Shown: positions 1,160 through 45,256 of the stretch, piece after piece | Numbering within the stretch: position 1 is the first letter of the stretch | Layout: every line of letters begins with the position of its first letter | DNA from: Nitrospiraceae bacterium | GTDB taxonomy: Bacteria; Nitrospirota; Nitrospiria; Nitrospirales; Nitrospiraceae | Reading direction: 5' to 3' | Assembly: GCA_035623075.1 (NCBI GenBank) | Contig: DASPUC010000022.1 | Location: 124,001-188,000, forward strand | DNA: 64,000 nt | Translations under genes and position numbers: made by a program | Notes under the pieces: generated by a model | What the model was told of the DNA's origin: nothing | The model's database searches: none | What the model saw: the letters and a program-made list of their open reading frames with translations, nothing else

Positions 1160-2107
1160 TCAGGCCGTCTGTTCAGCTTTTTTTACCCTGTCCCAGTACG
1201 TATTTATTCGAGTCTGGATGTGCACGATGACTTCCGTCTGCACGATCGGCTCGAAGAGATGGCGGAACCGACCTTGGAGTTTGAGATAATCTTCGACAGG
1301 TTGGAGTGTAGGCATGTAGGTATGCACCACGTTGCCATTAATCGCTTCTTTCAATGGCCACAGTCCGCACTCCACCGCCAATCTCGCCACATCAGGAGTA
1401 TAGGCTGCATCAAATACCCATCCTGTCGGACATGCCGCGAACGCCAGGAAAAGTTTGGGACCGGGATAGCTCGCCGCGCGCAGAAATTTCTCTTCGAGGT
1501 CGAGTGGAAAACGAGGCGACACAGTCGCCATGTACGGAGGCTGATGTGCACGCCAGATTTCGAAAATGTCTTTCTTTTCCTGAGTGGTGCCGGCGGGGTG
1601 TTGCACCGCACAGGGTGAGGTGGCGGTTCTAGCACCATACGGGGTGGCAGGGCTGAGCTGAACCCCTGTGTTGCCGTAGGCTTCGTTGTCGTAACAGAAA
1701 TAATAAAAATCCAACTTCCTGCTAATGGCCCCTGATGTCGATGAAAGCGCCATGTCGTAGGTCGATCCGTCTCCGCCCAACACCACCACTTTGACATCTT
1801 CTTCCTTCGGCAATCGCCCTTTGGCAATCAACACATCGAGAGCATCGCGAACACCCTGTGCCCCGGCCGGTGCTGATCCCATCGTTGTGTAGAGCCAGGA
1901 CGCATCGAGCGGCGTGAAAGGGAAGGCCGCCAGGTTGGTGAAGCAGCCTGCTGCATTGACGTAAACGACACGGCTGCCGAGCACCTTGGACGCAAGCCGC
2001 AACGATTCGAGTCCTCCACAGCCAGCGCAGAGCGGTGTGCCAGGAAACACATGCTCTTCTCGAGGAATCTGATGCAACTCTTTGAAGATATGTGGCTCCC
2101 AAGCCAT
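1160..2107 (-). CDS. porB: Pyruvate/2-oxoacid:ferredoxin oxidoreductase, beta subunit
   Basis: This 315-aa protein carries the thiamine diphosphate site of POR. The GDG at the start of the GDGSTYDMALSS stretch, followed by NEAYGNTGVQ, binds the Mg-diphosphate. The early CAGCG pair and the later Cys in AAGC and SPC fit the extra [4Fe-4S] cluster of PorB. The start at 2107 (MAWEPHIF) is chosen because it lies 8 nt after the porA stop; the open frame upstream overlaps porA and looks non-coding. The enzyme interconverts pyruvate plus CoA with acetyl-CoA, CO2 and reduced ferredoxin. In autotrophic Nitrospira-like organisms it can run reductively in the reverse TCA cycle. A related 2-oxoacid substrate cannot be excluded from sequence. 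Confidence 0.93.
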   Translation of the reverse strand: MAWEPHIFKELHQIPREEHVFPGTPLCAGCGGLESLRLASKVLGSRVVYVNAAGCFTNLAAFPFTPLDASWLYTTMGSAPAGAQGVRDALDVLIAKGRLPKEEDVKVVVLGGDGSTYDMALSSTSGAISRKLDFYYFCYDNEAYGNTGVQLSPATPYGARTATSPCAVQHPAGTTQEKKDIFEIWRAHQPPYMATVSPRFPLDLEEKFLRAASYPGPKLFLAFAACPTGWVFDAAYTPDVARLAVECGLWPLKEAINGNVVHTYMPTLQPVEDYLKLQGRFRHLFEPIVQTEVIVHIQTRINTYWDRVKKAEQTA

Positions 2108-2115
2108 GCTGCATC

Positions 2116-3357
2116 TCACCTGCCAGTTTTGAGTTCGTGCGCGAGGTACTGGAGCTGTTCTATCTCTCGATGCTCGCTTTCGGTATAGAGCAACACCGGT
2201 CCGATCCCTTTCCCCCGGACTCCGGCATCCGCTGTTTGTTCGAAGATCGCTTGGAATTCTCCCTCGGACAGATTCTTTCCTCCCAGACCCCCGATGAATG
2301 AACAAAGTGCTCTCGGCCGCAAGGCTTCGTGGTAAAGACAGGCTGAAATCTCCTGAAACAGAATACCGCCCTGCCCCGGTGACAGATTTTGATCCAACAC
2401 AGCCACGGCCCGGCGGCCTTGCAGCGCCTGCTGGATCGCAGTGGTCGGCCAGGGACGGATCACACGCAACCGAAGCAATCCCACACGGCGGCCCTGTCCC
2501 CTCGCCGCGTCGACCGCTGCCTTCCCTTTGCTCGCAAAGGCGTTGGTCATGACGAGGACATCCTCTGCCTCATCAAGACGGTAGCCTTCCACCAGGTCGT
2601 AGCGACGGCCACAGAGCCGTTCGAAGTCCGTAGCCGCCTCTTCATGCACTTGAAGCGCGTTCATTGAAGCGAGATGGATTTGGTGACGGAAGTAACTGTA
2701 AGTCGATCCGCCGAGCACTGCCGTCCCGAGCGCGTGAGGGACCGACGCTTTGAACCCCAGATGAGCCGGACGGAACGGCGGCAGGAAAGCCTGCACCATC
2801 TGTGGATCAGGTAGGATGACCGGCTCGCGCGTGAAGGAAAGATAAAATCCGTCCAGATTCACCATGACGGGCAGACAGACCCGCTGGTCTTCAGCGATGC
2901 GGTACGCCATAATGATGGAGTCCACCACTTCCTGACAGGTTTCAGCATGGATCTGTAGAAAACCGGAATCTCTCGCTGCCAGGACGTCATTGTGGTCCGG
3001 CTCCAGGGTGATCGGCGACGCCAGCGCGCGGGACACGTTCACCAGCACGAACGGCACCCGCCATCCCACCACCGTGTAGAGCACCTCGAAGGCGTGAAGC
3101 AGGCCTTGGCTCGACGTCGCGGTAAACACGCGCGCACCAGTTGCCGCCGCCGCTCCTGCCGCAGTCATCATCGAATGTTCCGAATCGAGCGTGATGAAGC
3201 GGGCATTGAGTGATCCGTCCCCGCACCACTTGGAAAGAGCTTCGACGATTTCCGTTTGCGGAGTGATCGGAAACGCCGGGACATAGTCCACGTCGGACAG
3301 ACGAGCTCCCCAGGCTGCTGCGAGATTGCCGGTCATCATCTGGTGTGTCTGGTTCAT
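2116..3357 (-). CDS. porA: Pyruvate/2-oxoacid:ferredoxin oxidoreductase, alpha subunit
   Basis: The 413-aa product has the PorA core: a pyrimidine-binding PFOR domain starting at FPITPQTE, the DSEHSMMTAAGAAAATGAR segment, and a C-terminal transketolase-like domain II. It pairs with PorB to form the thiamine diphosphate active site. The gene lies 8 nt before porB and about 115 nt after the gamma-delta gene. Its first codons (MNQTHQMM) are the last copies of a degenerate AACCAGACA-like repeat that fills the upstream gap, so the N-terminus may be repeat-derived or the start may be a little further in. There are no ferredoxin domains in this chain; those are on the gamma-delta protein. Confidence 0.93.
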   Translation of the reverse strand: MNQTHQMMTGNLAAAWGARLSDVDYVPAFPITPQTEIVEALSKWCGDGSLNARFITLDSEHSMMTAAGAAAATGARVFTATSSQGLLHAFEVLYTVVGWRVPFVLVNVSRALASPITLEPDHNDVLAARDSGFLQIHAETCQEVVDSIIMAYRIAEDQRVCLPVMVNLDGFYLSFTREPVILPDPQMVQAFLPPFRPAHLGFKASVPHALGTAVLGGSTYSYFRHQIHLASMNALQVHEEAATDFERLCGRRYDLVEGYRLDEAEDVLVMTNAFASKGKAAVDAARGQGRRVGLLRLRVIRPWPTTAIQQALQGRRAVAVLDQNLSPGQGGILFQEISACLYHEALRPRALCSFIGGLGGKNLSEGEFQAIFEQTADAGVRGKGIGPVLLYTESEHREIEQLQYLAHELKTGR

Positions 3358-3465
3358 CTAGTTTGTCTGGGTTGTTTGGTTTATTTGGTTCATTTCGTTG
3401 GTCCGGTTTCTTTCGATGTCTGGCTTATTTCGTTCCTCAGACCAAGGAAACAAGACAAACCAAAT
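3340..3465 (-). repeat. Degenerate 9-nt tandem repeat between porGD and porA, with inverted copy
   Basis: Read on the minus strand, this stretch is a run of imperfect nonamers of the type AACCAGACA / AACCAAACA / AACCAAATA, which continue into the first codons of porA. At 3451-3470 the plus strand carries a copy in the opposite orientation (caagacaaaccaaatagacc). The two arms can pair imperfectly and could form a long hairpin in the porGD-porA mRNA. No gene fits here. Confidence 0.7.
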
Positions 3466-3472
3466 AGACCGT

Positions 3473-4372
3473 TCAGCCTACATTCGTTTCCCGTTCCACG
3501 GTCATTGCGTCGGTCGGACAGACTTCGACGCAATCAAGACAGCCTTTACAGTGCGGATAGTAGATGGCGGGCTTGCCATCCGGTTTGATCGTAATTGCTC
3601 CTTCCGGACAGTTGGCAAAACAGAGCCAGCAGCCATTGCAGAGGTCCGGCCGCAAGACCGGACGGAATGTCCGCCACCCGCTCATCGAGCGGATAGCAGA
3701 ATTAGGTCCGGCCGTAATACTGGCGGTTCCTCTCGTCGGTGATTCATACGCCGGAGCCCATAGCTTCGCCAGAGCTGCAGGCTGGCGCGCACTTCTGTCA
3801 ATAGAGATGACCGGCACTGCTTCATAGGAGCGAAGCCCTACCGCTTGATTACTCTCGATGTCCGATGCGGCAAGACCGAGCTCACTCAATTCCCGCGCGA
3901 TCGCCTCTTGGATTGATTCCCTACGAAGTCCGACGAGTCGTCCGGCTATGGCTCCAAGCAAGGCGCTGATCGCTCCTCGCTTGCCAAAATGCTCAAGCGC
4001 CATCTGGTTGAGGTCCAATGTCGAGAGACGACCGTAAAGAGCGGTCTGAGCCCGTATTTGTTTGGGACTGAGTGGAGAATTGACGAACAGGGCCGTTCCT
4101 TCGTCGACACCCTCCGACACGCGGGCGGCAGGATCTGGGATGAGCGACGCATCTGCGACCACGACTAGATCGGGACTGACGATGAATCCCCGCTCGCGAA
4201 TCGGCTCTTTCGCAATCCGCGTAAACGCATACATCGGCGCGCCCCGGCGCTCAGCCCCGTAGATCGGAGAATCCTGTGCCTGATATCCTTCCAGAAAAGC
4301 TGCGGTTCCAAGAATCCGACTGGCAGTCTTCGCCCCCTGCCCGCCTCGGCCATGAAAGCGAATGGATAGCAC
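3473..4372 (-). CDS. porG: Pyruvate:ferredoxin oxidoreductase, fused gamma-delta subunit
   Basis: The 299-aa chain joins two POR subunits. Residues 1 to about 185 are the gamma domain (begins MLSIRFHGRGGQGAKTASRI, the GxGGQG signature). After a short linker, the last 65 residues are a delta-type ferredoxin with two [4Fe-4S] motifs, CNGCWLCFANCP and CKGCLDCVEVCP. The ferredoxin part passes electrons between the PorB cluster and soluble ferredoxin. Gamma-delta fusion is known in some bacterial PORs. The gene is first of the three por genes and 12 nt downstream of the YtxH gene, so the four genes probably form one transcript. Confidence 0.92.
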   Translation of the reverse strand: MLSIRFHGRGGQGAKTASRILGTAAFLEGYQAQDSPIYGAERRGAPMYAFTRIAKEPIRERGFIVSPDLVVVADASLIPDPAARVSEGVDEGTALFVNSPLSPKQIRAQTALYGRLSTLDLNQMALEHFGKRGAISALLGAIAGRLVGLRRESIQEAIARELSELGLAASDIESNQAVGLRSYEAVPVISIDRSARQPAALAKLWAPAYESPTRGTASITAGPNSAIRSMSGWRTFRPVLRPDLCNGCWLCFANCPEGAITIKPDGKPAIYYPHCKGCLDCVEVCPTDAMTVERETNVG

Positions 4373-4384
4373 GGTGCATCCTCA

Positions 4385-4696
4385 TTAACTACAGCACGTA
4401 TCCATCTTCTCTTTCATGGCCTGTTTACCGGCCATGACGGCCGCGTCGACATCAGCTCGTTTTTCCGCGACAAAATGTTTCCCTCGTTCGATCATTTCAT
4501 CGAGAGCGGCTCGAGCCTCCTTGGCCTTTTCGATGACCTCGTCCTCGGCCTTTCTGGCATACCCCTTCAGCGCTCGGCGCGTTTCCTCGCCCGATTTCGG
4601 CGCGAGAAGAATACCGGCCACCGCTCCGGCGATGGCACCACCGAGAAACGCGAGGGCGATGGCCTGTGTTGAACATTTGGCGTCCTGACTCTCCAT
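4385..4696 (-). CDS. YtxH-domain small membrane-associated protein
   Basis: The 103-aa protein has one hydrophobic, Gly/Ala-rich segment (FLGGAIAGAVAGILLAPKSG, about residues 18-37). The LLAPKSGEETR sequence is diagnostic of YtxH proteins. A charged helical tail ends in CC. YtxH proteins are linked to stress responses but have no defined biochemical role. The start at 4696 has a clear Shine-Dalgarno (GGAGGAT). The gene heads the por cluster and lies about 45 nt downstream of a -24/-12-like promoter. The double Cys at the C-terminus is unusual and could bind a metal or carry a lipid or disulfide; that is speculation. Confidence 0.85.
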   Translation of the reverse strand: MESQDAKCSTQAIALAFLGGAIAGAVAGILLAPKSGEETRRALKGYARKAEDEVIEKAKEARAALDEMIERGKHFVAEKRADVDAAVMAGKQAMKEKMDTCCS

Positions 4697-32190: not shown

Positions 32191-32712
32191 TCAGTCGCGG
32201 GAGGAATGTTGGTCATCTCGGAGCTCTGACAGGACCTTGAGAATTTCTGATGGGCGCGGTGGGCAGCCGGTAATGCGGACGTCGACTGGAATGTGCCGCT
32301 CCACTGGGCCGGTCACGGCGTAGCTGCCCTTGAACATGCCACAGTGAACCGCACAGTCACCGAGCGCGATGACAATCTTCGGGTCAGGCGTCTGGTCGTA
32401 CACATCTTGTAACGCACGCTCCATATTGACGGTGACAGGACCTGTCACCACGAGCGCATCCGCATGACGTGGTGAAGCAGCGATGTGAATTCCGAATCGC
32501 TCGATGTCATAGACCGGATTTGCGAGTGCGTTCAATTCCATCTCACAGGCATTGCACGAACCGGTGTCCACTGCGCGGAATGCAAGAGATGAACGGAACG
32601 GCTTGGCTTTGGCTTGTACGTCCTGTGTCGGTGCTGCCGCGGGTAGAACGGCTTCAGGATACTGGCCCGTTACAACTCCGGTTTTGAGGCTCTTCTTGAG
32701 AATACGGAACAT
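32191..32712 (-). CDS. Ehr-type complex, small (Fe-S) subunit, NuoB/HycG-like
   Basis: The 173-aa subunit has four cysteines placed as in hydrogenase-4 small subunits: C53 and C56 in GSCNACEMEL, C120 in GDC and C150 in GCPPRP. These bind the [4Fe-4S] cluster next to the quinone-like site. The CxxC spacing follows hydrogenase-type proteins (HycG/HyfI) rather than the CC of complex I NuoB. It is the last gene of the cluster, 75 nt after the large subunit stop, and has a long N-terminal extension (about 40 residues). Its partner lacks all nickel cysteines, so the complex is not expected to be a hydrogenase. Confidence 0.9.
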   Translation of the reverse strand: MFRILKKSLKTGVVTGQYPEAVLPAAAPTQDVQAKAKPFRSSLAFRAVDTGSCNACEMELNALANPVYDIERFGIHIAASPRHADALVVTGPVTVNMERALQDVYDQTPDPKIVIALGDCAVHCGMFKGSYAVTGPVERHIPVDVRITGCPPRPSEILKVLSELRDDQHSSRD

Positions 32713-32787
32713 GATTCCTCCTCGACTGACGGCCGTGAGTTAGCAGACGTCGACTTCACGCCCATGACGATAGGCTCCTCTTATCAT

Positions 32788-34380
32788 TTACAGGTCGTTC
32801 CCCGCATACGACAAATTGAAACTCTTATTAATGAGCGGAAAGTCCGGAATGATATTCCCCAGGACAGTCCATTGTATTGCTGGCCAGTTCACGAACGACG
32901 GGTCACGCACCTTACATCGATGAATGGCGCCCTGTTCTCCGGCCATCACCATATGTACAATTTCGCCGCGCCAGCCCTCGACTGCCGAGAGGGCCCACTC
33001 ACCGGCGTTGGGCGTGCGGTCTGGTTCGACGGCGACCGGCCCTTGCGGAATCTTTTCGCGAATCTCTCTGATCAGCCGCATAGATTCATGAATCTCATCC
33101 ATGCGGACCCGCATTCGCGCCCGCACGTCGCCATACCGATAAGGGACTACCTTGACCGGCAGCTCGTCGTAGGCGGCAAATGGCCGATCACGCCTGATGT
33201 CCTGATCGAGACCCGACGCTCGTCCGACAACTCCCACGACTGCATGATCCCATGCCGTGCGTTCTGTCAGGACACCGGTGGTCTCCAACCGGTCTGTCAG
33301 AGAGGCGTTGGCGGCGATGATCGATTCCAACTCTGAAAAGTCCGGTTCCATGCGATTCAGTTCGTCCACGATTTCGGCCAGCTGTTCTCTTGTGAGATCC
33401 ACGGCAGCCCCACCCACCCGGTTCACCCCGCGGAGAAACCGTGAACCGCTCAGGCGGTCGTTGAGCTGCATGATGCGCTCTTTCATCCGACCGCAATGCA
33501 TATGGGGCAGGGCGTAGGCCGTATCGTTACAGATCGCACCCACGTCGCCGAGATGATTGTGGAGGCGCTCCAGTTCCAGAAACAGGCTCCGGAGATAGCG
33601 TCCGCGGCGCGGCACGTCCAGATGCAAGAGCGATTCAACCGCTTGGCAATAGCCTAAACTGTGTCCGACCGTCGTGTCGCCGGACACCCTCTCAGCCAAC
33701 GGAACCGCCTCGGTCAGTCTCTGTTGCTCGAACAGCTTTTCAATTCCACGATGCTTCCAGAAATGGTGCAACTCGAGTTGCATGATGGGTTCGCCTGCCA
33801 CAGAAAATCGAAAATGCCCCGACTCGATGATCCCGGCATGAATGGGGCCCACCGGTACTTCAAATACCCCTTCTCCTTCGATGTGGCGGAAACGATGCTC
33901 ACCCTGTTGTCGACCCAGCACATGGTCCCAGTGAAAGTCTTTCTTGAGCGGGTGTGCCCCTTTGGGCCAGTGTTCGTGCCGGATGAGACGCCGCAAATCC
34001 GGGTGTCCCTGCGGAATCAACCCGAACATGTCGCGAATCTCACGCTCGTACCACTTGGCGGCATGAATGTGGGGCGTGATGGAAGGAAACAGCCGATTGT
34101 TCCCGGCAAGCTCGGTGGACAGCAAAACCCATCGGCGGGACGACTCCAAAGTAAACAGGTAGTGCAATCCGTAAGAGTCGCGCATGGGCCGATTGTCGAC
34201 AGCCCACAGCATCGTCATTCGACCACGCAGGCTCGGTTGAGTGTGGAGGTAGTGGGTGATCGACGGAATCAGGTCCTTGGGAACTGTAAAATGCGAGCAA
34301 TCGATTTGCGCCGGTTCACTCTGTGCGATCGACGGAAACGCAGTCTTTAGCACATACTCACATGAACTCGCCTCTGTCAT
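32788..34380 (-). CDS. Ehr-type complex, fused NuoC-NuoD-like large subunit without Ni ligands
   Basis: The start at 34380 gives 530 aa: a NuoC-like part (1 to about 165) and a NuoD/HycE-like part. [NiFe] hydrogenases have CGxC near the middle and DPCxxC at the C-terminus. Here the first is R231-V-S233-G-D-T236, with conserved H240, and the second is D493-P-S495-F-V-N498. All four cysteines are replaced (Ser, Thr, Ser, Asn) while the surrounding Arg, Asp, Pro and His are kept. This is the hallmark of energy-converting hydrogenase-related (Ehr) complexes, which resemble complex I but lack the hydrogenase site. The longer frame upstream overlaps the next gene and is not used. Confidence 0.9.
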   Translation of the reverse strand: MTEASSCEYVLKTAFPSIAQSEPAQIDCSHFTVPKDLIPSITHYLHTQPSLRGRMTMLWAVDNRPMRDSYGLHYLFTLESSRRWVLLSTELAGNNRLFPSITPHIHAAKWYEREIRDMFGLIPQGHPDLRRLIRHEHWPKGAHPLKKDFHWDHVLGRQQGEHRFRHIEGEGVFEVPVGPIHAGIIESGHFRFSVAGEPIMQLELHHFWKHRGIEKLFEQQRLTEAVPLAERVSGDTTVGHSLGYCQAVESLLHLDVPRRGRYLRSLFLELERLHNHLGDVGAICNDTAYALPHMHCGRMKERIMQLNDRLSGSRFLRGVNRVGGAAVDLTREQLAEIVDELNRMEPDFSELESIIAANASLTDRLETTGVLTERTAWDHAVVGVVGRASGLDQDIRRDRPFAAYDELPVKVVPYRYGDVRARMRVRMDEIHESMRLIREIREKIPQGPVAVEPDRTPNAGEWALSAVEGWRGEIVHMVMAGEQGAIHRCKVRDPSFVNWPAIQWTVLGNIIPDFPLINKSFNLSYAGNDL

Positions 34381-34394
34381 GGCCGTTGTCCTCC

Positions 34395-35930
34395 TTAGTG
34401 GATCAATAAAAGTCGCGTGGCCTGCTCTAAGAGTTGCTGCATGGGCTGCGGAAGGAAGAGACTGAATCCTACCAGCGCGGCAGTGAGCAACACGATTGGC
34501 AAATGGCCTAGCGTCCAGATTTCTCCTCGGATGATTCCCTCCGGCGGTGTGCCCCAGACCATTCCGGTCGTACGATAGAGCACGCCGCCGAACGCCAGAA
34601 TGGCACTCAGCAAGAATACTCCGGCAAGACCCAAACGACTGAATTGATCTGACACAGCAAAGGTCACCATGCCTCCGGTGCTGCTGAGCCATTCCCCCGG
34701 AACCCCTTGTGCAGCGAGCGCTGTGATGATTTGCACTTCACTGACGACCGATGCGAATGGAGGCAGCGCCGAGAGAGCTAGTCCTGAAATCATCAACGCC
34801 ATCGCGGTCCAGGGCTGCGCGATGGCCAGCCCCTGCACCTCGCCGATTTCTACTGTATGGAAGCGGCGATGAATATTGCCCGCGGCAAAAAACGCCATCG
34901 ACTTGGCGAACGCATGATTCAACAGATGAAATAACCCGCCGAACGTTCCCAGTGGCCCTCCCACTCCGAATCCGATCATGGCAATTCCCATATGTTCGAT
35001 ACTGGAATAGGCAAACAGCCGTTTGTAGTTGTGCTGAATCAGGATAAAAAACGCGCCGGTCACCAATGAGGTAAACCCGAGCAGCGCCAGCAACCCTCCC
35101 GTGAAAGAAGATGCCACCGCGTGATCCACAATCATTCTCATACGGAGGATCGCATACACCGCAACAACTTCGAGGACACCCGCCAGCATTGCCACCACCG
35201 GCGCCGGCGCCTCGGTATACGCATCCGGCAACCAGCTATGCATGGGCACGAGCCCCACCTTGGTGCCGTAACCCACCAGCATAAAAATAAAGGCCAGGTT
35301 TAGTACGTGAGGATTCAGTCGGTCGGCAACGCGTAGCAACTGCGTGACATTCAGCGCCTCACTGACGTTACCCAGCACATGCAATGACGAGTAATACGTG
35401 AGCACGACGCCGAAGAGCGCGAGGGAAATCCCGACCGAACATAAGATGAGGTATTTCCAGCCTGCTTCCAATGAAGCACGTCGTCGCCAGAAGGCGATGA
35501 GAAAGGTCGTGGCGAGCGTCGTCGCCTCGATCGCCACCCATTGCACTCCGACACTGTTTGCGACCGTCGCGATCACCATCGACAGCAAGAACATGTGGAA
35601 GAGAAAAAAGAACAGATTGAGTCGTGTGGGCGCGATCACACCGCGTGCGACCTGGTCATCCATATAGGAGCGCATGTAGAACGAACAGGCCAGTCCGACC
35701 GCTCCGATGATGAAGAGAATGAAAACCGACAAGGCGTCGAAGTAGACCAACGATGCCAGGGCCGTGAACGGCCCATTGTTCAGGACGGTCCTGCTGATTA
35801 GGATTTCTGCCGTCACCAGCACGCCGATGCTCGTGAGATTGATCGCGTGGAGCAAGGCGGACCGGTGAACGATCAGGCTCAGCCACCCGGCGAGGAGCGG
35901 CGCAGCCAGCAAAATCACCACTTCGATCAT
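34395..35930 (-). CDS. Ehr-type complex, HyfF/NuoN-like antiporter-type subunit
   Basis: The 511-aa protein has about 13-14 membrane helices in the Mrp-antiporter pattern, with the GYGTKVGLVPMHSWLPDAYTEAPAP motif that carries the conserved Lys and the loop typical of HyfF/NuoN. It would be a proton- or sodium-translocating unit. It lies 14 nt before the large-subunit gene and 16 nt after the HyfE-like gene, in the usual hydrogenase-4 order. Confidence 0.92.
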   Translation of the reverse strand: MIEVVILLAAPLLAGWLSLIVHRSALLHAINLTSIGVLVTAEILISRTVLNNGPFTALASLVYFDALSVFILFIIGAVGLACSFYMRSYMDDQVARGVIAPTRLNLFFFLFHMFLLSMVIATVANSVGVQWVAIEATTLATTFLIAFWRRRASLEAGWKYLILCSVGISLALFGVVLTYYSSLHVLGNVSEALNVTQLLRVADRLNPHVLNLAFIFMLVGYGTKVGLVPMHSWLPDAYTEAPAPVVAMLAGVLEVVAVYAILRMRMIVDHAVASSFTGGLLALLGFTSLVTGAFFILIQHNYKRLFAYSSIEHMGIAMIGFGVGGPLGTFGGLFHLLNHAFAKSMAFFAAGNIHRRFHTVEIGEVQGLAIAQPWTAMALMISGLALSALPPFASVVSEVQIITALAAQGVPGEWLSSTGGMVTFAVSDQFSRLGLAGVFLLSAILAFGGVLYRTTGMVWGTPPEGIIRGEIWTLGHLPIVLLTAALVGFSLFLPQPMQQLLEQATRLLLIH

Positions 35931-35946
35931 TCCGTCGAATCCCCCC

Positions 35947-36612
35947 TTATTCCTTCAACACCGTGAGACGGCTGGTATCCACACTGTCAAACGCATCTTG
36001 TAAGCGGTTCGTGTAAATCCCAGCGATCAACGCCGCAATGAGCACATCGAAAAACACACCCAGCTCAACGATCAAGGGCATCCCGTAGGTGGCGGCCGTG
36101 GCCCCTAAAAATAGACCGTTCTCCATGACGAGAAAGCCCACCAGCTGGGTCACGGCCTTTTGTCTCGCGATCATCGTAAAAAAACCGATGAGCACGATCG
36201 CAAGCGCGATGGCGAGCGAATCGCGAGTGAGTACAAATCCCAGCGCGATGATCGGTTGTGTAATAAAGAAGGCCAGCATGACGAGGGCACCGCAAATTAA
36301 CAGCCCGGCCGGCACGTTGACATTCATCACCAGCTCGCGCTTGACGTTGAGCCGCTCGATGACCTTTTTCAGAACCCGTGGAATGATCACCACCTTGATC
36401 AGGCCGGTCAGCCCGGCTGCGATGTAGATATGATGGTTACCGGTCAGAAAGGCCACCACTGACGCCGTCAGAGCCAGGAAGCCCGACTGCAGTGCGAATA
36501 AGTCGACACAGGCGGATAGCCGTCGCTGCGCCACGATCGCGAAGCAGGTCAATAACAACAACGCTGAGCACAAATCAACGAGTTGCGATCCAACGTGAGA
36601 AGAGATTGGCAT
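35947..36612 (-). CDS. Ehr-type complex, HyfE-like membrane subunit
   Basis: The start at 36612 (MPISSHVGSQLVDL) gives 221 aa with about seven helices. The pattern includes an early Arg-rich loop (FAIVAQRRLSACVDLFALQSGFLA), the KVVIIPRVLKKVIERL loop, and the conserved MENGLFLGATAATYGMPLIVELGVFFDVLIAALIAGIY segment. These are features of HyfE (related to NuoK/MrpC). It lies 4 nt after the NuoH-like stop. Confidence 0.9.
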   Translation of the reverse strand: MPISSHVGSQLVDLCSALLLLTCFAIVAQRRLSACVDLFALQSGFLALTASVVAFLTGNHHIYIAAGLTGLIKVVIIPRVLKKVIERLNVKRELVMNVNVPAGLLICGALVMLAFFITQPIIALGFVLTRDSLAIALAIVLIGFFTMIARQKAVTQLVGFLVMENGLFLGATAATYGMPLIVELGVFFDVLIAALIAGIYTNRLQDAFDSVDTSRLTVLKE

Positions 36613-36616
36613 CCGT

Positions 36617-37567
36617 TCAGCTCCGGAGGATGTAAAAGAACAGCAGTCCGAGCAATGCGAGGATAAAGGCAACACCCAGGAGGTCTGTCACACGGAACAA
36701 CCGCAATTTAGCGAACATGCATTCCAGGGTCCCAATCAGCACCGCGAGTCCAGCGATCTTCACCACATATGCGAGAAGTCCGATTCCCATCGCGGTGGGC
36801 GTCAGCGTGGTTGCAATCCCCCAGGGCGCAAAGACATTCGCGATCAAGGAGAGAAACACCGCCAACTTCATCCCGGCCGCCCATTCGATTAAGGCGAGAT
36901 ACCGGCCTGAATATTCCAGAACCATCGCCTCGTGGATCATGGTCAGTTCGAGGTGCGTCGCCGGATTATCGACTGGCACCCGCCCGGTTTCCGCCAGCGC
37001 CACGATAAAGAGGGCCGCCAACGCCATCAGATGCGGCGATGGGTCGGTCACGATGCCTTCCAACAACGCGGTCTTATGGACAATGGTGCTGAGATTGGTG
37101 GAGCCTGCGGTCAATGCGATGGCAAAGATAGAGAGGATCATGGCCGGCTCTGTCAACGACGCCACGATGGCCTCCCGGCTGCCGCCCATCCCGCCGAACG
37201 CTGATCCGGCATCCAGTCCCGCAAGAATCAGGAAAAACGTCCCCAGTGCAAGGAGGTACACGAGCGCGATGATGTTTCCCGCAAAGTTCATGGGGGTTTG
37301 AGAGGTGAACGCTGGGACTAACAGGCCTGCCGACAGTGCGGAGGTAAACACAATATAGGGTGCGGCGGTAAAGATCCACGAGGTGGTGGTCGAAACCACC
37401 GGCTGCTTCCGGAAGAGCTTGGCAAGGTCTGCATAGGGCTGGAACACACCTGCGCCCTTCCGGCACTGGAATCGCGCTTTCACTTTGCGGATGAGTCCTA
37501 CGAGAAAAGGGGAGATCGCAAGGAGCAAGACGGCTTGCGTCACAACGAGGAAGACCATATAAATCAT
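36617..37567 (-). CDS. Ehr-type complex, HyfC/NuoH-like membrane subunit
   Basis: The 316-aa protein has about eight helices and the NuoH/HycD signatures: KARFQCRKGAGVFQPYADLAKLFRKQ (the acid- and base-rich first loop) and ETGRVPVDNPATHLELTMIHEAMVLEYSGRYLALIEWA. This subunit links the Fe-S module to the ion-pumping arm and forms the quinone or ferredoxin side channel in related complexes. It lies 26 nt after the HyfB-like gene. Confidence 0.93.
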   Translation of the reverse strand: MIYMVFLVVTQAVLLLAISPFLVGLIRKVKARFQCRKGAGVFQPYADLAKLFRKQPVVSTTTSWIFTAAPYIVFTSALSAGLLVPAFTSQTPMNFAGNIIALVYLLALGTFFLILAGLDAGSAFGGMGGSREAIVASLTEPAMILSIFAIALTAGSTNLSTIVHKTALLEGIVTDPSPHLMALAALFIVALAETGRVPVDNPATHLELTMIHEAMVLEYSGRYLALIEWAAGMKLAVFLSLIANVFAPWGIATTLTPTAMGIGLLAYVVKIAGLAVLIGTLECMFAKLRLFRVTDLLGVAFILALLGLLFFYILRS

Positions 37568-37593
37568 TGATTGCCTCTTTCTTTCGACTTCTC

Positions 37594-39624
37594 TTAAACG
37601 GCGAACAGCAACAGGATCACGAGCGCAACAAAAATATAGGCCAAGTATAGGTGCAGGCTGCCGGCCTGAAGTATGCGTAGCCGGTCGGCGATTCCCATAA
37701 AGGCATCCACCACAGGATCGTAGAGATATTTCTGGAAGACCGGCTCGATGTGAAACTCAAATCGGCGTCGCTTGGCAAAGTAGCGGGACTCTTCCAAAAA
37801 CTCAGTCTCGAGCTTCACGGTCGGCCGATAGATGGTGCTGAAGACTCTCTTGATGGGCTGGACGAACCCCGTAGCCGTGTACTCCATTCGCGGCGACACA
37901 TTAATCCCGCAGGCCCAGGTTTTATACGAGCGCCTCACCAGCCGTCCCCCGAACACGAAAGCCAACAGCAGAGCAAGGAGACCGCCAGCGATCAGCATGA
38001 TCCCCAACGCAGGCGGTGAGATGCTCGAGAACTCCACGTTCATCGGTGCCAACGCCCATCCGTCGAGCGCCAACATTTTGTCGCTGATCGACACCCCCGT
38101 CAGCGGTGCCGTAGTCCGATCGAGGAGAGGCACCACGATCATGGGAGCCAGACCCAGGATGACGCACACTACGGCCAGGATTCCCATTCCGAATCGCATC
38201 GCGATCGGAACTTCTCCAGCATCGCGCGCGTGGTAGCTCCGCGGGAGCGCCAAAAACGACATGCCGAAAGCCTTAGCAAAACAGGCCAGGGCTAAGACAC
38301 CGGTCAAGGCCAGTATGGCCGCCGCAACCGGAAGCATCAGCTTGAGGAACAAAGCCGGAAGTTGAAAACTCAGGAAGAGTGTTTGAAACACCAACCATTC
38401 GCTCACGAATCCATTGGTAGGTGGCAGCGCTGAGATCGACACAGCACCGACAAGGAAGAACAGGCCGGTCCAGGCCATGCGTCGGAGCAGACCGCCGTAT
38501 TCCTCCAGGTTCCGACTGTGCGTGGCGTACAGAAGAGAACCGGCCCCAAAAAAGAGCAGAGCCTTGAACACCGCGTGGTTCACGGTGTGATAGAGCCCGG
38601 CGAGGAGTCCAAGCGCGGCAAATTCTCTCAGCCCGTATGTCTGAAAGATCATGCCGGCTCCGATGCCGAGCAGAATGATGCCGATGTTTTCCACGCTATG
38701 AAATGCGAGGAGACTCTTCAGGTCGTGTTCCATGAGCGCATACATCACACCAAGCAATGCCGACACAGTTCCGACAAGTAACACAACGAATCCCCACCAC
38801 CAGGGGAATTGTCCGCCGAGAAAATCAAAATACACACGTATCAGCCCATAGATCGCGGTTTTGATCATGACACCCGACATAAGCGCTGAAATATGCGACG
38901 GTGCGGCTGGGTGCGCGTAAGGGAGCCAGACGTGCAACGGCACGATCCCGGCTTTTGTTCCAAAGCCGATCAAGGCGGCCAGAAACACCAGCGTCCTCAT
39001 CCCTTCTGGCAAGGACTGTGTCGGATGACGGAACGCCTCGAACGAGAATGAGCCGGCTGCCTGGAATAGGATCAGATAGGTCAGCACGACAAAGGCCGTT
39101 CCCACGTGAGTCATGACCAGATAAAAGAATCCGGCGTAGCGGACGTCCGCGTTCTCATGCTCCGTCACAACCAGGAAATACGAGATGAGCGACATCAATT
39201 CCCAGGCGATGATGAAGAAGAACCCATTATCCGCGACAACCACGAGCGTCATGGAGAGTAGAAAACCGTTAAGGAGAGAGCCGAGCGCGGCGATGGAGTG
39301 CCGGCCGTAGAACTCTGTTACATACCCCACGGCATATATTGAAGCAGCGAAACCGATTAACGAAATGGTCACCAGGAAAACCGCTGCGAGCGGGTCGAGG
39401 CGCACTGCAAAACTTAGATAGGGGATGGTGGAGGAGAGCGAGGTGGTCAGGGGTTCAGATGCGATCAGACCTGCTAGGCCAAGTGCTACACCAAGGAGGC
39501 CCGCCGCACAGGTGAAGCTGTGGGCGACAAGATTCTGCAGTTTAGGGCGCCTTGGCAGACAAGCAGGTAGGACGACACCCGCCGCATAACATGTGAGCAG
39601 GGCGATGAAGAGGACACTCATCAC
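37594..39624 (-). CDS. Ehr-type complex, HyfB/NuoL-like antiporter-type subunit
   Basis: The 676-aa protein has about 16 helices. It contains GFGTKAGIVPLHVWLPYAHPAAPSHISALMSGVMIK, the Lys- and His-containing core of HyfB/NuoL, and the extended C-terminus seen in HycC/HyfB. It is the first gene of the complex. The cluster HyfB-C-E-F-G-I has no obvious HyfA, H or NuoI-like ferredoxin and no HyfD, so it is a reduced set. Gene 39763 upstream encodes the likely activator. Confidence 0.93.
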   Translation of the reverse strand: MMSVLFIALLTCYAAGVVLPACLPRRPKLQNLVAHSFTCAAGLLGVALGLAGLIASEPLTTSLSSTIPYLSFAVRLDPLAAVFLVTISLIGFAASIYAVGYVTEFYGRHSIAALGSLLNGFLLSMTLVVVADNGFFFIIAWELMSLISYFLVVTEHENADVRYAGFFYLVMTHVGTAFVVLTYLILFQAAGSFSFEAFRHPTQSLPEGMRTLVFLAALIGFGTKAGIVPLHVWLPYAHPAAPSHISALMSGVMIKTAIYGLIRVYFDFLGGQFPWWWGFVVLLVGTVSALLGVMYALMEHDLKSLLAFHSVENIGIILLGIGAGMIFQTYGLREFAALGLLAGLYHTVNHAVFKALLFFGAGSLLYATHSRNLEEYGGLLRRMAWTGLFFLVGAVSISALPPTNGFVSEWLVFQTLFLSFQLPALFLKLMLPVAAAILALTGVLALACFAKAFGMSFLALPRSYHARDAGEVPIAMRFGMGILAVVCVILGLAPMIVVPLLDRTTAPLTGVSISDKMLALDGWALAPMNVEFSSISPPALGIMLIAGGLLALLLAFVFGGRLVRRSYKTWACGINVSPRMEYTATGFVQPIKRVFSTIYRPTVKLETEFLEESRYFAKRRRFEFHIEPVFQKYLYDPVVDAFMGIADRLRILQAGSLHLYLAYIFVALVILLLFAV

Positions 39625-39762: not shown

Positions 39763-41157
39763 CTAATGAATCTGATATGTTCTCAGCTTGTTATAGAGAC
39801 TTGCCCGACTGATCTTGAGCAATTTGGCCGTTTTGACGCGGTTGCCATCGGACTGTTGAAGAGCCTGGATGATGCGTGCCCGCTCCGCTTGCTTCATCGC
39901 GCCCCGCGATACAGATCGAAGGTCTCGTTCCGCCTGTTCTGATCCCATCGCCACGATGTCACCACACGTCAGCTGAGGGCCAACGGTCGTGACCACAGCC
40001 CGCTCGATATAGTGCTGTAACTCGCGGACGTTTCCGGGCCACGTCGCTTCGGTCAATGCGTGCATCACGTCCGGCGAGATCGTCCGGAACGGCTGCCGAT
40101 GTCGTTGACAGGATGTCGCGATGAAGTGGTTGACGAGCAGCGGAATATCCTCCCGTCGTTCCCGAACGGGCGGAAGATGCAACGGCAAGACAGCCAACCG
40201 ATAGTAGAGATCCTGTCGGAAAGCTTTCGACCGGACGAGTTCGGTAAGATCTTTGTTGGTCGCCGAGATGACCCGAACGTCGATCTTAATCGGGTGAGTT
40301 CCTCCGACACGTTTGATTTCCCCTTCCTGAAGAACTCGGAGGAGCTTGGCTTGAAACGATGGAGTCGTGTCGGCGATTTCGTCCAGGAAAACCGTCCCGC
40401 CATCCGCTTCTTCGAACAAGCCTCGCTTGTTCGAAACCGCACCGGTAAAGGCCCCTTTCACGTGACCGAACAGTTCACTCTCGAGCAGCGTCTCCGGCAG
40501 CGAACCGCAATCGACAATCACAAATGGCTCGCTCCTTCGATAGCTAATTTTGTGGATGGTTTTTGCGACTAACTCCTTCCCCGTCCCGCTCTCCCCCTGG
40601 ATCAGGACTGTCGCGGTACTATCCGCCACCAGGCCGATCATCTCGAAGAGCTGCTGCATCACGGGACTTCGACCGATCAGCTCATCCAGGGATTCCCTCT
40701 GCGCGAGCAGGGAATTTTCCGTTGGCGGAGGGGCAGGATCCGACTGACCCTGAATCGTCTTTTGCTTGAACAATACCAGCATCAACTCCACCTCACCCCG
40801 ATCAGATGTGAGCGGGAAAACCTGATACATGTCGCAGGGCATCCGGTCTTCGATGGTGGCGCCGGCATCGGGCTGGACTTCAGATGATTCGAACAATGTC
40901 ATGTTCGGGCACGATTCACAGGTTCCACCACGATGTGCGAACACCGCATAGCACTTAGCAGGATGTGCCCCCGTTCCATCATGCAGGGTTTCCGTCCATG
41001 CCGACTCGTTGGCATAGACGACGTTGAAGTTGCGATCCACGACCGCGATACGGTCGGTCAATCCACCGGCGAGTTGTTTGATCGCCTCAAGACGAGCCGT
41101 GAGAACAGGATCATTCAGGCTACGGGAGGCTGATTGGTTTGATAGAGATCCGGCCAT
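39763..41157 (-). CDS. Sigma-54 activator with Cys-rich PAS domain
   Basis: The start at 41157 gives 464 aa. The PAS domain (about 20-130) has four Cys (C69, C80, C83 and C108; the C80-x-x-C83 pair in GGTCESCPN), suggesting a redox- or metal-sensing cofactor. The AAA+ domain has Walker A GESGTGKE, GAFTGA (sigma-54 contact loop) and Walker B TVFLDEI. A Fis-type HTH is at the C-terminus (RVKTAKLLKISRASLYNKL). There is no receiver domain, so it senses a signal directly. It lies 138 nt before the Ehr genes and 38 nt after a receiver protein, so it may regulate both its own operon and the Ehr cluster. Confidence 0.92.
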   Translation of the reverse strand: MAGSLSNQSASRSLNDPVLTARLEAIKQLAGGLTDRIAVVDRNFNVVYANESAWTETLHDGTGAHPAKCYAVFAHRGGTCESCPNMTLFESSEVQPDAGATIEDRMPCDMYQVFPLTSDRGEVELMLVLFKQKTIQGQSDPAPPPTENSLLAQRESLDELIGRSPVMQQLFEMIGLVADSTATVLIQGESGTGKELVAKTIHKISYRRSEPFVIVDCGSLPETLLESELFGHVKGAFTGAVSNKRGLFEEADGGTVFLDEIADTTPSFQAKLLRVLQEGEIKRVGGTHPIKIDVRVISATNKDLTELVRSKAFRQDLYYRLAVLPLHLPPVRERREDIPLLVNHFIATSCQRHRQPFRTISPDVMHALTEATWPGNVRELQHYIERAVVTTVGPQLTCGDIVAMGSEQAERDLRSVSRGAMKQAERARIIQALQQSDGNRVKTAKLLKISRASLYNKLRTYQIH

Positions 41158-41195
41158 CTCGACCTCTTCGGCCGACAGCTGAGACCTACAAGCTG

Positions 41196-41594
41196 TCAGA
41201 ACTCCTCTGCAACCTTGCTCGTTAACAATTGTCGCACCGTCGCCTTCAACTCGCCGAGCCGCACCGGTTTGTCGAAGTAGGCCGCGGCGCCCCACTTCAA
41301 TGCATCTGACTTTATTCGGGTCCCTCCGAAGGCGGTCATTAGCACGATTGGGGAGTGGGGAGCGAAGGTCTTCAGGCGACTGATGTAATCGAATCCCCCG
41401 GCCGGCATCTTCAGATCGGTCAGAATCAAGTCGGGCGCTGACTCCAGCACCATTCGAAGAGCCTCATCACCGTCTCTGGCTTCTCTGAGCTGGTAACCTT
41501 CGCTCCAGAGTTCGTCACAGAGCAGACTGCGCATATCATTGTCGTCTTCAACAATCAGCACCACGGCGGATTTCCTTTCGGTCACCACTCTCAT
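41196..41594 (-). CDS. Stand-alone response regulator receiver protein
   Basis: The 132-aa protein is a CheY-like receiver: acidic pair EDDND, phospho-acceptor Asp in DLILTDLKMPAGG, the Thr/Ser switch in VLMTAFG, and the conserved Lys in YFDKPVR. It has no output domain. It is the first gene of the Ehr transcription unit, 23 nt downstream of a predicted sigma-54 start, and the partner of the nearby sensor kinase or of the PAS activator is not known. Confidence 0.91.
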   Translation of the reverse strand: MRVVTERKSAVVLIVEDDNDMRSLLCDELWSEGYQLREARDGDEALRMVLESAPDLILTDLKMPAGGFDYISRLKTFAPHSPIVLMTAFGGTRIKSDALKWGAAAYFDKPVRLGELKATVRQLLTSKVAEEF

Positions 41595-41627
41595 TCCTGT
41601 TCCGGATCGGCCCCTGGCTCAGGGAAA

Positions 41628-41643
41628 CGCAAGTCACGTGCCT
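41628..41643 (-). promoter_or_regulatory. Strong candidate sigma-54 promoter for receiver, activator and Ehr genes
   Basis: The minus strand reads AGGCACGTGACTTGCG. GGCACG-N4-TTGC matches the -24/-12 consensus with GG and GC ten bases apart; only the first base differs from TGGCACG. Transcription should start near 41617, 23 nt before the receiver ATG at 41594. Confidence 0.65.
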
Positions 41644-41747
41644 CATAAACTTTCGGCGTGATCCTCCCTCCCGCCCTGAAGAATGGCTCATATTTCTGAG
41701 GAAACGTACGATGGAGGACGATTCGAGGATGGTGGAATGGGGAGAAA

Positions 41748-41762
41748 CACCCCAATTGGGTG
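41748..41762 (-). promoter_or_regulatory. Candidate activator palindrome upstream of the Ehr-operon promoter
   Basis: CACCCCAATTGGGTG has arms CACCC and GGGTG around an AT-rich centre. It lies about 138 bp upstream of the predicted start, a typical enhancer distance. The gap 41595-41881 contains it, the promoter, and the repeat at 41800-41885, and no gene. Confidence 0.35.
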
Positions 41763-41799
41763 AGGTTATTTGTCGAGAACCGCTACAGGGGATGGGAAC

Positions 41800-41885
41800 A
41801 GCTATCAGCGATCAGCTATCAGCGAAGACATTAGAGTTGACTCTAGGAGTTGCGCATACGCTGAAAGCTGATGGCTGAAGGCTAT
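41800..41885. repeat. TCAGC repeat with inverted partner, overlapping a kinase gene end
   Basis: AGCTATCAGCGATCAGCTAT (41800-41819) is mirrored by CGCTGAAAGCTGATGGCTGA (41859-41878). The sensor-kinase stop codon (41882-41884) sits at the repeat edge. It is the longest of the TCAGC elements and could form a hairpin in both transcripts. Confidence 0.7.
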
Positions 41886-43825
41886 GATTTCGGCTGATAC
41901 ATCGGCAGATGAATCGTGAAGGTCGTGCCTTTACCGGTATCACTTTCGACCCTGATGGTTCCGTGATGCTCCTCGATGATCCCCTTCACAACAGTCAGGC
42001 CGAGACCGGTACCCTTCCCGAACTCTTTGGTCGTGAAGAAGGGTTCGAAGATCTTGGCAACGACTTCCTCAGGGATGCCGTGACCGGTGTCAGCCACGGT
42101 GAGCCTGACCATCCTCTCGTGCGGTGAAACCCCAACCCGCAGGGTTCCCCCATCGGGCATCGCATGAAGTGCGTTCATGACGAGATTGATCACCACTTGA
42201 CTCATCTGATCCGCGTCTGCAAACACGGGAGGACATGACTCAGCGAAGGCTCGCTCGATGACGATGCGATGCCGACCCAGGCGTTCCTCGAAAATCTCCA
42301 GGTTATCGTCGACTGTCTTTTGCAGATCGAGCGCCCGCCGTTCCACCGGTCTCCGCCGCGCAAAGGCCAATAACTGGTTCATGACCTTCGTAATACGCTC
42401 AACCTGACTGACGATGGTCTGCAAGCCTTTCTTGAGCGGTTCCTCTTGCGTTCGTTGCATCAAGTACTCGGCTCGGCCGAGGATCACGTTCATCGGCGTA
42501 CCGATTTCATGCGCCATGCCGGAGGCAAGCGTACCGAGTTCTGCAATCCGCTCGGTTCTTCGGAGCTGTTCCTGAAGCCGGTTACGTTCACTGACGTCCC
42601 GAATCATGGCCACAACCGCCGGCCCTTCCTCATCAATAAATCGGGCTTTGCTCACTTCGACGTCGACAACCCTTCCATCGAGCGTCACGAGTTTTTCTCC
42701 AACGATGGGCACCGTCATCTTGCCTTCCATCAATTGCTGGACTCTTTCACGAATCAAGTCATGACAGTCCGGATGGAACAGGTCGAAGCGCGATTTCCCG
42801 AGAATCTCTTCCGCTTTCACTGCCCCGAAGAGTTTCAGACCAGCGTCATTGATGAAGATCACTCGATCCCCGCGATAGACCACGATCGCGAGGGGTGACA
42901 CACCAATGAGTTGTCGATAGCGCTCTTCACTCTGGCGTACCAGCCGCTCAGCCTGATTCCGATCTGTAATATCGCGCAGGATCACCGTGTAGAACTTCTT
43001 GCCCTCAACGATGATGTTCGAGATGGCTGCTTCGACCGGGAACTCTGCGCCGTCGGCACGAAGTCCCATGATCGTGCCAAGCCCCCCCATCTTCCGATTC
43101 GTCACGCCCGATCCGCCGAACCTCTGGATGTGCAGCCGATGTGCCTCACGAAATCGATCGGGAATGAGCTTATCAAGCGGTTGGCCGATCATCTCACGAG
43201 CCGGGCATTTGAACATACGTTCGGCTGCGTCGTTGAACATCAAGACGCGTTGTCGTTCATCCACCGTAATGATCGCATCCATTGCAGACTGGATGATGCC
43301 TTCCAATCTCAGACGGGTGATGAGATATTGCTCCTCCGCCTCTCGGCGGCTAGCGAGCGCTCCCATTACCGCCGTCTCCGCAGAGGCCCGCGCCTCTTGC
43401 GCCGCCGTGAGCAACCCTTCCGCTTGCGATCGCCCGGCACGTTCCGACATCAGTTCCTGCAAAGCTTGGCTCTTACCTGTTTCGGCAGTGGCCAGATGAG
43501 CTCGGGTTCTTTTGAGTTGGAGTAGCGCACCCGCGATGAACCACAATGCCAACGTGCCCAAGGCCCGATTCAACGCACCGTACTGGATAAGCAAAGCGGA
43601 AGGCTTCAAGAACAGTCCGGCCCAGAGAAGTCCTGTTGCGACGATGCAGAAGTAGACAGGATCTCGTTCGCGCACAGAAAGGAATGTCATCACGAGGGGG
43701 ATGACGTAGAGGACGGACACTGCCACCCCCACCGGAGTCAGCAGATCAAGGACAAAAATGGCAAAGGCCAAGACCGGGATCGCCACTGGCGCGGCGCACA
43801 TGACAAGACTTTTCTCAACCTTCAT
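41882..43825 (-). CDS. Membrane sensor histidine kinase with PAS domains
   Basis: The 647-aa protein has about four N-terminal membrane helices (1 to about 105), a coiled-coil region, and at least two PAS domains. The first starts at [23 protein letters not shown] and the second at [21 protein letters not shown]. The HisKA box is [20 protein letters not shown] and the HATPase_c boxes are [23 protein letters not shown] and [14 protein letters not shown]. It phosphorylates a response regulator, most likely the NtrC-type protein encoded 38 nt upstream. Its stop lies at a TCAGC repeat. The cytosolic PAS domains may sense redox state or small ligands. Confidence 0.92.
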
Positions 43826-43863
43826 ACGATCGATTCCGGCCTACGTCGATCTGAATGAGGCGA

Positions 43864-45243
43864 TCACAGTTCTGGTTGGGCTTTGCCTTCGATTTCGCCA
43901 AGTTTGCGATAGAGAGTCTTACGGTCGATGCCCAGCACGTGCGCGGCCTGGTATTTGTTCCCGCCCATCTTTTCGAGGATTTTCTTGATGTATTCTTTTT
44001 CGATCTCATGAAGCGGAAGGGTTTTTTCCGCCGCCTCGTCCAGAACACGGCGGTCTCCGCGCGCACCCTGCACGGCCGGCGGGAGATCATCCGGAGAAAT
44101 CTTTTCCCCCAAACTTAGGGTGACCGCCCGTTCGATGACGTTCTCCAGTTCACGGACGTTGCCGGGCCATGCATAATCCATCAGCATGGCGAGGGCAGCC
44201 TCATTCACTCCTTTCATTTCCTTCCCGCGCACCACTCCACATTTCTTCAGAAAGGCGTCGACGAGGAGAGGGATGTCTTCCCGCCGCTCACGCAGCGGCG
44301 GCAGCTTGAGCTCGATCACGTTGAGTCGATAGTAAAGATCTTCTCGGAATCGCTTGGCTTTGACTTCGTCATTGAGATTCAGGTTGGTCGCCGCAATGAT
44401 CCGCACGTCGACGGAGATTGGCTTCGTCGCCCCTACCCGACGAATTTCCTTCTCTTGAATCACGCGCAGGATTTTGGCTTGAAGCATGAGGGGCAATTCG
44501 CTGATTTCGTCCAAGAACACCGTCCCCTTTTGCGCTTCCTCGAACAAGCCCCGCTTATCCATCTTGGCATCGGTAAAAGCCCCTCGCATGTGACCGAAGA
44601 GCTCGCTTTCCAGCAACTGCTCGGGAATCGCTGCACAGTTCACCGGCACAAACGGCGCCTCTCGCCGGTCGCTGTTATAGTGGATCGCCTTGGCGACCAG
44701 CTCTTTGCCGGTCCCACTCTCGCCGGTGATGAGTACGTTCGTGGGACTATCAGCGACCCGGCGGATGAGATCGAATACCCCCTGGATCGCTTTGCTCTTG
44801 CCGAGAATTTGGTGGAAGCTGTATTCCTTATGGACTTCCTTCCTCAGCCGGCTCACTTCACGCCGGAGTGCAGCCTCCCGCACGACTCGTTCGACGACGC
44901 GCACGATCTCGTCACTCTTGACCGGTTTGGTCAGATAGTCGCTGGCGCCATGTTTCATCGCCTCGACCGCAGTTTCTACGGATCCGAACGCCGTCATCAG
45001 AATCACGCCGGTGTCCGGGTAGAGACGCTTAATCTCCGCCAAGAGCTCTGTGCCCTCCATTCCCTTCATCCGTAGGTCCGTGAGCACCACGGCAAAGTCT
45101 GTTTGCGCCAACTGTATGAGCGCCTCCTGCCCATTCCCGGCAGTGGTGACCTGATGTCCGCGGGCCTTCAGCACATCATGAACCAACGCCCGCATCTCGA
45201 CATCATCGTCAACAACCAGAATCGCGCCCCACTCCTCGGTCAT
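43864..45243 (-). CDS. NtrC-family sigma-54 response regulator (GAFTDA variant)
   Basis: The start at 45243 gives 459 aa: receiver (ILVVDDDVEMR, Asp in VVLTDLRM), AAA+ domain (GESGTGKE, TVFLDEI) and Fis HTH (NKYQAAHVLGIDRKTLYRKL). The sigma-54 contact loop reads GAFTDA rather than GAFTGA. An Asp in this loop is known in some active family members but changes the contact surface. A TTG 12 nt upstream would extend the protein by four residues; the ATG has the better RBS (GGAGAG). It is the first gene of the pair with the sensor kinase. Confidence 0.93.
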   Translation of the reverse strand: MTEEWGAILVVDDDVEMRALVHDVLKARGHQVTTAGNGQEALIQLAQTDFAVVLTDLRMKGMEGTELLAEIKRLYPDTGVILMTAFGSVETAVEAMKHGASDYLTKPVKSDEIVRVVERVVREAALRREVSRLRKEVHKEYSFHQILGKSKAIQGVFDLIRRVADSPTNVLITGESGTGKELVAKAIHYNSDRREAPFVPVNCAAIPEQLLESELFGHMRGAFTDAKMDKRGLFEEAQKGTVFLDEISELPLMLQAKILRVIQEKEIRRVGATKPISVDVRIIAATNLNLNDEVKAKRFREDLYYRLNVIELKLPPLRERREDIPLLVDAFLKKCGVVRGKEMKGVNEAALAMLMDYAWPGNVRELENVIERAVTLSLGEKISPDDLPPAVQGARGDRRVLDEAAEKTLPLHEIEKEYIKKILEKMGGNKYQAAHVLGIDRKTLYRKLGEIEGKAQPEL

Positions 45244-45256
45244 CTTTCTCTCCAAC

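Follow-up and report, generated by a model that had tools for sequence, protein, structure and literature searches.

Complexes of the Ehr (Ech-hydrogenase-related) type resemble group 4 hydrogenases and lack the ligands of the NiFe site. The passages available from PMC12342949 (2025) place them in about half of Nitrospirales and give their function as unknown; those from PMC10284858 (2023) describe Ehr in hot-spring comammox Nitrospira, and those from PMC5596200 (2017) assign the same hyfBCEFGI operon to the group 4 hydrogenases. The cluster analysed here is one of the published Nitrospirales Ehr: as far as the excerpts of PMC12342949 and PMC10284858 go, there is no difference in kind, both being group 4 hydrogenase-like and lacking the NiFe ligands. 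The first-pass annotation of this DNA is correct in substance and its observation is not new. In the accessible parts of the same two papers, keyword searches returned no mention of the L2/C-terminal signature, the HyfH remnant, the HyfH-HyfI fusions or the neighbouring POR operon described below.

With E. coli hydrogenase-4 and formate hydrogenlyase (HyfA-J, HycE), the complex shares six core subunits and their order, and the large subunits are 33–35% identical; unlike Hyf/HycE, it has no HyfA, D, H or J, no nickel cysteines, no C-terminal extension and no maturation genes. Its head and membrane subunits are also homologous to those of complex I (NuoB, CD, H, L, M, N), whose APSFVN stretch is matched by DPSFVN in Ehr. 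It differs from complex I in that the small subunit EhrS carries a hydrogenase-type CxxC instead of a tandem CC, the NADH module and NuoI are missing, and the quinone-site Tyr is replaced by Gly. Plasmid-borne clusters of rhizobia, Burkholderiaceae, Methylocalor and Rhodococcus share the six genes and the pocket signature and, where annotated, likewise have no ferredoxin subunit, maturation genes or formate dehydrogenase (FDH) adjoining; they differ in their heterotrophic or methanotrophic hosts and, in Rhodococcus, in having the S gene first.

Organization of the Ehr locus

The window, i.e., the whole 64,000-nucleotide stretch of DNA analysed, lies in Nitrospira genome G000 (3.39 Mb, 99.93% complete), and its nearest relatives are Nitrospira MAGs. 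Six genes stand in the order HyfB-C-E-F-G-I at 39624-32191 on the minus strand; this hydrogenase-4 order had been read in the first-pass annotation, and the family matches bear it out. The first gene encodes a HyfB-like antiporter subunit of the EhrA type (676 aa; 37594..39624, minus strand; NCBIfam hydrogenase 4 subunit B, 734 bits, above the cut-off). It is followed on the same strand by a HyfC/NuoH-like membrane subunit alignable with both HyfC and NuoH (316 aa; 36617..37567; Pfam NADHdh, 4e-48), a HyfE-like membrane subunit (221 aa; 35947..36612; NCBIfam hydrogenase 4 membrane subunit, 3.5e-27), which starts at ATG 36612, a start codon shared with several relatives, and a HyfF-like antiporter subunit (511 aa; 34395..35930; NCBIfam hydrogenase 4 subunit F, 2.8e-119). 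The HyfG/HycE-like large subunit EhrL (530 aa; 32788..34380, minus strand), with fused 30 kDa and 49 kDa domains, starts at ATG 34380, the mechanical ORF start at 34692 being too early. The last gene encodes EhrS (173 aa; 32191..32712, minus strand), a HyfI/MbhJ-like small subunit with one predicted [4Fe-4S] site. Strong purifying selection acts on each of the six genes (dN/dS 0.03–0.10 against two relatives). No gene for HyfA, HyfD, HyfH or NuoI was found near the cluster, matching the absences listed earlier from the letters alone.

Genes for a PAS histidine kinase and a sigma-54 response regulator are often located upstream of Nitrospira Ehr (39763-45255 in the window; also in loci L005, L007, L015, L076, L078 and L084), and a GPR1/FUN34/YaaH-type gene (acetate transporter family) is directly upstream in several Nitrospira (L002 162-800; L008 1604-2242; L087 13740-14393). 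Matches to a sigma-54 -24/-12 promoter pattern were not above the chance level, and an Rfam search of 30–46 kb of the window gave no match.

The former nickel site of the large subunit

EhrL residues 11-527 align with E. coli HycE (E=6e-83), far beyond chance. The L1 motif R-V-S-G-D-T (residues 231-236; 33673..33690, minus strand) is aligned with R-V-C-G-I-C of E. coli HycE/HyfG, in agreement with the earlier reading of this motif as Cys to Ser and Cys to Thr. The second nickel motif had been sought in D-P-S-F-V-N (residues 493-498; 32887..32904, minus strand); this was a mis-mapping, since the partners of this stretch in the alignments are AATYANW in HycE and APSFVN in complex I, and it is not a nickel site. 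The true L2 forms the C-terminus, I-N-K-S-F-N-L-S-Y-A-G-N-D-L-stop (residues 517-530; 32788..32832, minus strand), with the counterpart I-I-G-S-L-D-P-C-Y-S-C-T-D-R; within it, SFNLSYAGNDL (520-530) is aligned with SLDPCYSCTDR of HycE and the fetched Hyf loci. The four ligand cysteines are thereby replaced by S233, T236, S524 and G527. Of the substitutions proposed at first (S, T, S, N), the first pair stands and the second pair is corrected, while the claim that all four nickel ligands are gone survives the new map (S, T, S, G). Where a locus also has HyfH and HyfD or carries hyp genes (E. coli, Rhodovastum, L106 and L107), all four cysteines are kept, which validates the four-residue map of EhrL.

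The substitutions recur across 92 aligned relatives drawn from Nitrospirota, Proteobacteria and Rhodococcus: S233 in 96%, T/S236 in 95%, S524 in 97% and G527 in 100%. On sequence evidence, the Ehr pocket is thus an alternative site that has become fixed, rather than one in decay. Sixteen EhrL positions are diagnostic of Ehr, including S233, N518, K519, S524 and G527; the Ehr-specific Asn518 and Lys519 stand beside the substituted pocket, and Asp235 is common there. E186, the Glu of the hydrogenase-type GHFR stretch, is invariant in the Ehr sequences aligned. In all of them the position of the complex I quinone Tyr (Tyr87) is occupied by Gly234, and the complex I His38 region is not matched. 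An AlphaFold2 model of EhrL, for which 14 near relatives were used, reached a mean pLDDT of 53, with low values around the motifs, and was too poor for inspection of the pocket.

Group 4 hydrogenases extend beyond the aligned Arg, and this extension is removed at maturation (HycE/HycI). The last residue of EhrL is the one that pairs with the Arg of DPCYSCTDR, the terminus of a matured hydrogenase, and the extension cleaved by the C-terminal endopeptidase is absent from it.

Phylogenetic placement and maturation

In a tree of 47 large subunits, which left out published reference Ehr sequences such as Geobacter's, the 40 Ehr sequences form one clade (100/100, branch 1.49) that includes neither complex I nor the group 4 hydrogenases whose cysteines are intact. 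The first-pass annotation had named a placement of the subunits within functional [NiFe] hydrogenases as the result that would speak against it; the large subunit is instead found in this separate clade.

HypD is required for NiFe maturation. It was the Hyp gene searched for, and none was found in G000, a genome 99.93% complete. HypD is also missing in 37 of the 63 Ehr-bearing Nitrospirales, and the two show no co-occurrence in this order (odds ratio 1.1).

The complex thus shows the features of Ehr membership: no NiFe cysteines, a six-subunit set without accessory hydrogenase genes, hydrogenase-type proximal [4Fe-4S] ligands and a separate clade. What would mark a group 4 [NiFe] hydrogenase is missing, namely four nickel cysteines in L1/L2, a cleaved C-terminal extension and HypD in the genome, as are the marks of complex I: the tandem CC of N2 in NuoB (CNAC here), the quinone Tyr, and NuoI and NADH-input subunits in the cluster. 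The Mbx/Mbs-type complexes of archaea are marked by a partial loss of nickel cysteines and a gene order of their own. The window complex is almost certainly an Ehr; the earlier assignment to this type, and not to the hydrogenases, holds on the separate clade, the lack of HypD and the retained pump residues.

The small subunit and the missing ferredoxin arm

The best PDB match of EhrS is MbhJ (E=1e-34), and its C53, C56, C120 and C150 have the hydrogenase-type CxxC arrangement, as had been recognized in the first reading; C124 is additional. C56, C120 and C150 are invariant throughout the alignment, and C53 is retained outside complex I.

EhrS starts with MFRILKKSLKTGVVTGQYP. A PSSM built from 66 EhrS N-termini and applied to the 43,260 possible starts of all loci placed a degenerate EhrS fusion, Rhodovastum HyfH and E. 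coli HyfH at the top ranks after the EhrS proteins, and direct comparison with Rhodovastum HyfH gave 48% identity over 23 residues. Residues 1-20 (MFRILKKSLKTGVVTGQYPE; 32653..32712, minus strand) are probably what remains of the N-terminal anchor helix of HyfH.

Four relatives possess EhrS as a HyfH-HyfI fusion (L054, L119, L063 and L105). The cluster cysteines are kept in the fused proteins of Variovorax (L054 4616-5365), G176 (L119 6617-7384) and Caballeronia (L063), while that of G273 (L105 7032-7874) has a HyfH-like domain with most cluster cysteines lost and looks like a stage on the way to losing the ferredoxin arm. The fused EhrS of Variovorax belongs to a second cluster and has eight additional cysteines. 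In BLAST comparisons, the HyfH-like arms of the fused proteins matched HyfH or NuoI at 6e-17 to 3e-11. HyfH-type arms are ferredoxin-like electron inputs. Given the HyfH-like start of EhrS and the full or decaying fusions in relatives, Ehr probably once had a HyfH-HyfI fusion, and most lineages probably lost the cluster-bearing part of its ferredoxin arm by an internal deletion that spared the anchor helix and a single cluster. This is the simplest account of the sequences, and in it EhrS appears to descend, probably, from such a fusion. The probable identity of the EhrS start with the HyfH anchor helix and the fused forms in relatives are new here; keyword searches of open papers, within the text they expose, found no mention of the remnant or the fusions.

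The membrane arm

At the pump positions important in NuoM, the HyfB-like subunit keeps Glu/Lys/Lys/Glu, and the HyfF-like subunit has Glu/Lys/Val/Glu, with Val at the second Lys position. In EhrF of a Rhodococcus plasmid (L052 12370-13887), the Glu, Lys and Glu of the pump positions are gone. The window cluster has one HyfF, and many Nitrospiria Ehr clusters carry a second HyfF paralogue; one of the paralogues is about 40–46% identical to the window HyfF and the other 52–64%. Variation in these paralogues was seen in L010, L011, L079, L080, L082 and L114-L116, as well as in L014 and L083, and some loci keep only the first-named, less similar paralogue. The two-HyfF clusters resemble the two-NuoM (2M) complex I, suggesting a different ion stoichiometry, which a second HyfF may raise.

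Distribution and genomic surroundings

Ehr was detected in 63 of 157 sampled Nitrospirales genomes and is absent from the other 94 (60%). It also occurs in many other Nitrospirota, where the clusters read mostly consist of the six genes alone. Tandem clusters of two types within one genome were observed twice (L100 1631-16422; L101 1943-18247), with the motifs SGDTT...GxDL and SGT[SD]S...GxD[RM].

Plasmid-borne Ehr was found at L050-L057, L060, L061, L065 and L066, with genes for a universal stress protein, YoaK, spermidine synthase, HPr, enolase or pyrophosphatase as neighbours (L051, L053, L057, L065 and L066). These surroundings in aerobes look like a low-oxygen survival island. A link to the lxa low-oxygen locus of Burkholderia was considered and dropped: the likeness concerns neighbouring gene types only, because the available passages on lxa mention no hydrogenase-like genes.

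No redox partner gene conserved beside Ehr across phyla was found in the clusters compared. A 1646-aa multicopper oxidase and a CarboxypepD_reg protein were rejected as partners; both are general in Nitrospirales (154/157 and 131/157 genomes, respectively), which makes their adjacency uninformative.

Functional interpretation

By sequence, Ehr lacks the NiFe ligands and the ferredoxin arm, has one Fe-S site, and retains a conserved substitute pocket and intact pump residues. A redox-driven ion pump is its likely function. The fuller model that we favour, at about even chances, is a NiFe-less relative of complex I and group 4 hydrogenases working as a one-cluster redox-driven pump with a soluble donor and a small oxidant in the pocket. 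The EhrS cluster, uncovered by the loss of the ferredoxin arm, would exchange electrons directly with ferredoxin or another small carrier; the emptied NiFe pocket would bind a small oxidant, most likely a membrane quinone; and reduction of this oxidant, or the reverse oxidation, would be linked to proton movement by way of the HyfC, HyfF and HyfB subunits. A quinone as the substrate of the former NiFe pocket is plausible at somewhat below even chances, and its site would have to be new, since Ehr does not retain the quinone residues of complex I. Gly234 at the Tyr87 position, the lack of a conserved partner gene and the lost pump residues of EhrF in L052 argue against the model at the sequence level.

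A tentative extension, which we regard as rather a long shot, is a minimal one-cluster pump formed by arm deletion after NiFe loss, which would have spread on plasmids and chromosomes among aerobes belonging to several phyla and would serve persistence at low oxygen, the pocket being a new quinone or small-molecule site. The fused and decaying EhrS intermediates and the universal stress protein neighbours on plasmids are leads in this direction. By its description, Rv0081-Rv0088 of M. tuberculosis, a locus linked to hypoxia, named 'formate hydrogenlyase' and referenced in PMC6177252, may be a further lead.

An unlikely alternative to the one-cluster pump with a soluble donor is a ferredoxin device for CO2 fixation, in which quinol-driven reverse electron flow (or the opposite) would feed POR and 2-oxoglutarate:ferredoxin oxidoreductase. 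The first-pass annotation had suggested that ferredoxin could be linked to the ion gradient in a POR-bearing autotroph, and such a link is possible: EhrS probably derives from a HyfH-HyfI fusion with a ferredoxin-like arm, and a second, archaeal-type POR operon lies in the window at 603-4696, 28 kb from Ehr (YtxH-like, PorCD, PorA, PorB and cytochrome c'-like genes). This operon adjoins Ehr in L008 (11741-16566) and is ~5 kb away in L120 and ~7 kb in L121. It is present in 33 of 157 Nitrospirales genomes, 22 of which also have Ehr (odds ratio 4.0, p=6e-4); within the family, however, this link is weak (p=0.05), and genus g2 shows none. Ehr lacks the ferredoxin arm, and the 2M-type complex I is the candidate for ferredoxin reduction named in the passages available from PMC6606698. 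Most autotrophic relatives have no Ehr (60% of the Nitrospirales genomes), and heterotrophic aerobes carry it on plasmids, which argues against a role specific to CO2 fixation. In L001, the genes flanking POR are retained and POR itself is missing.

The loss of both the catalytic metal ligands and the ferredoxin arm beside intact antiporter subunits would also suit a redox-dead transporter, its head a structural relic and its membrane arm an Mrp-like antiporter or leak valve. We consider this distinctly unlikely: a relic would drift, whereas EhrS conserves its [4Fe-4S] cysteines throughout, and the residues of the pocket are the same from phylum to phylum, at a dN/dS of about 0.1.

Electrons from FDH are an improbable source for the complex. 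An FDH-Ehr has been proposed for Riflemargulisbacteria (PMC6349859), and Ehr protein was higher on formate in Geobacter (PMC7894505), both according to the passages available from these papers. FDH and Ehr co-occur across Nitrospirales (odds ratio 5.8, p=5e-6; p=0.02 within the family), most visibly in genus g3, where FDH is present in 13/13 Ehr genomes vs 2/5 others. Yet this association is largely phylogenetic, with none within genera g2 and g5, and no FDH gene was found beside Ehr among the clusters read. An obligate partnership with FDH is ruled out by the 34 of 63 Ehr genomes without an FDH match above the family cut-off. Finally, an active group 4 hydrogenase or formate hydrogenlyase, as in PMC5596200, is suggested by gene order and homology to Hyf and is refuted at the sequence level by the absence of the four nickel ligands, of the maturation extension and of HypD and by the separate clade, so that we give it practically no chance.

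Implications for Nitrospira and the Ehr family

Ehr is widespread in both aerobes and anaerobes and is still annotated as a hydrogenase, which misleads metabolic models of Nitrospira. A simple rule separates the two: the corrected four-residue map, the C-terminal signature NKSFNxSYxGxD and the absence of HypD. The fused relatives hint at the origin of Ehr, and the HyfH-HyfI forms are natural variants in which the route of electron entry is still visible; because they retain this route, the question of the oxidant and reductant of Ehr becomes directly testable.
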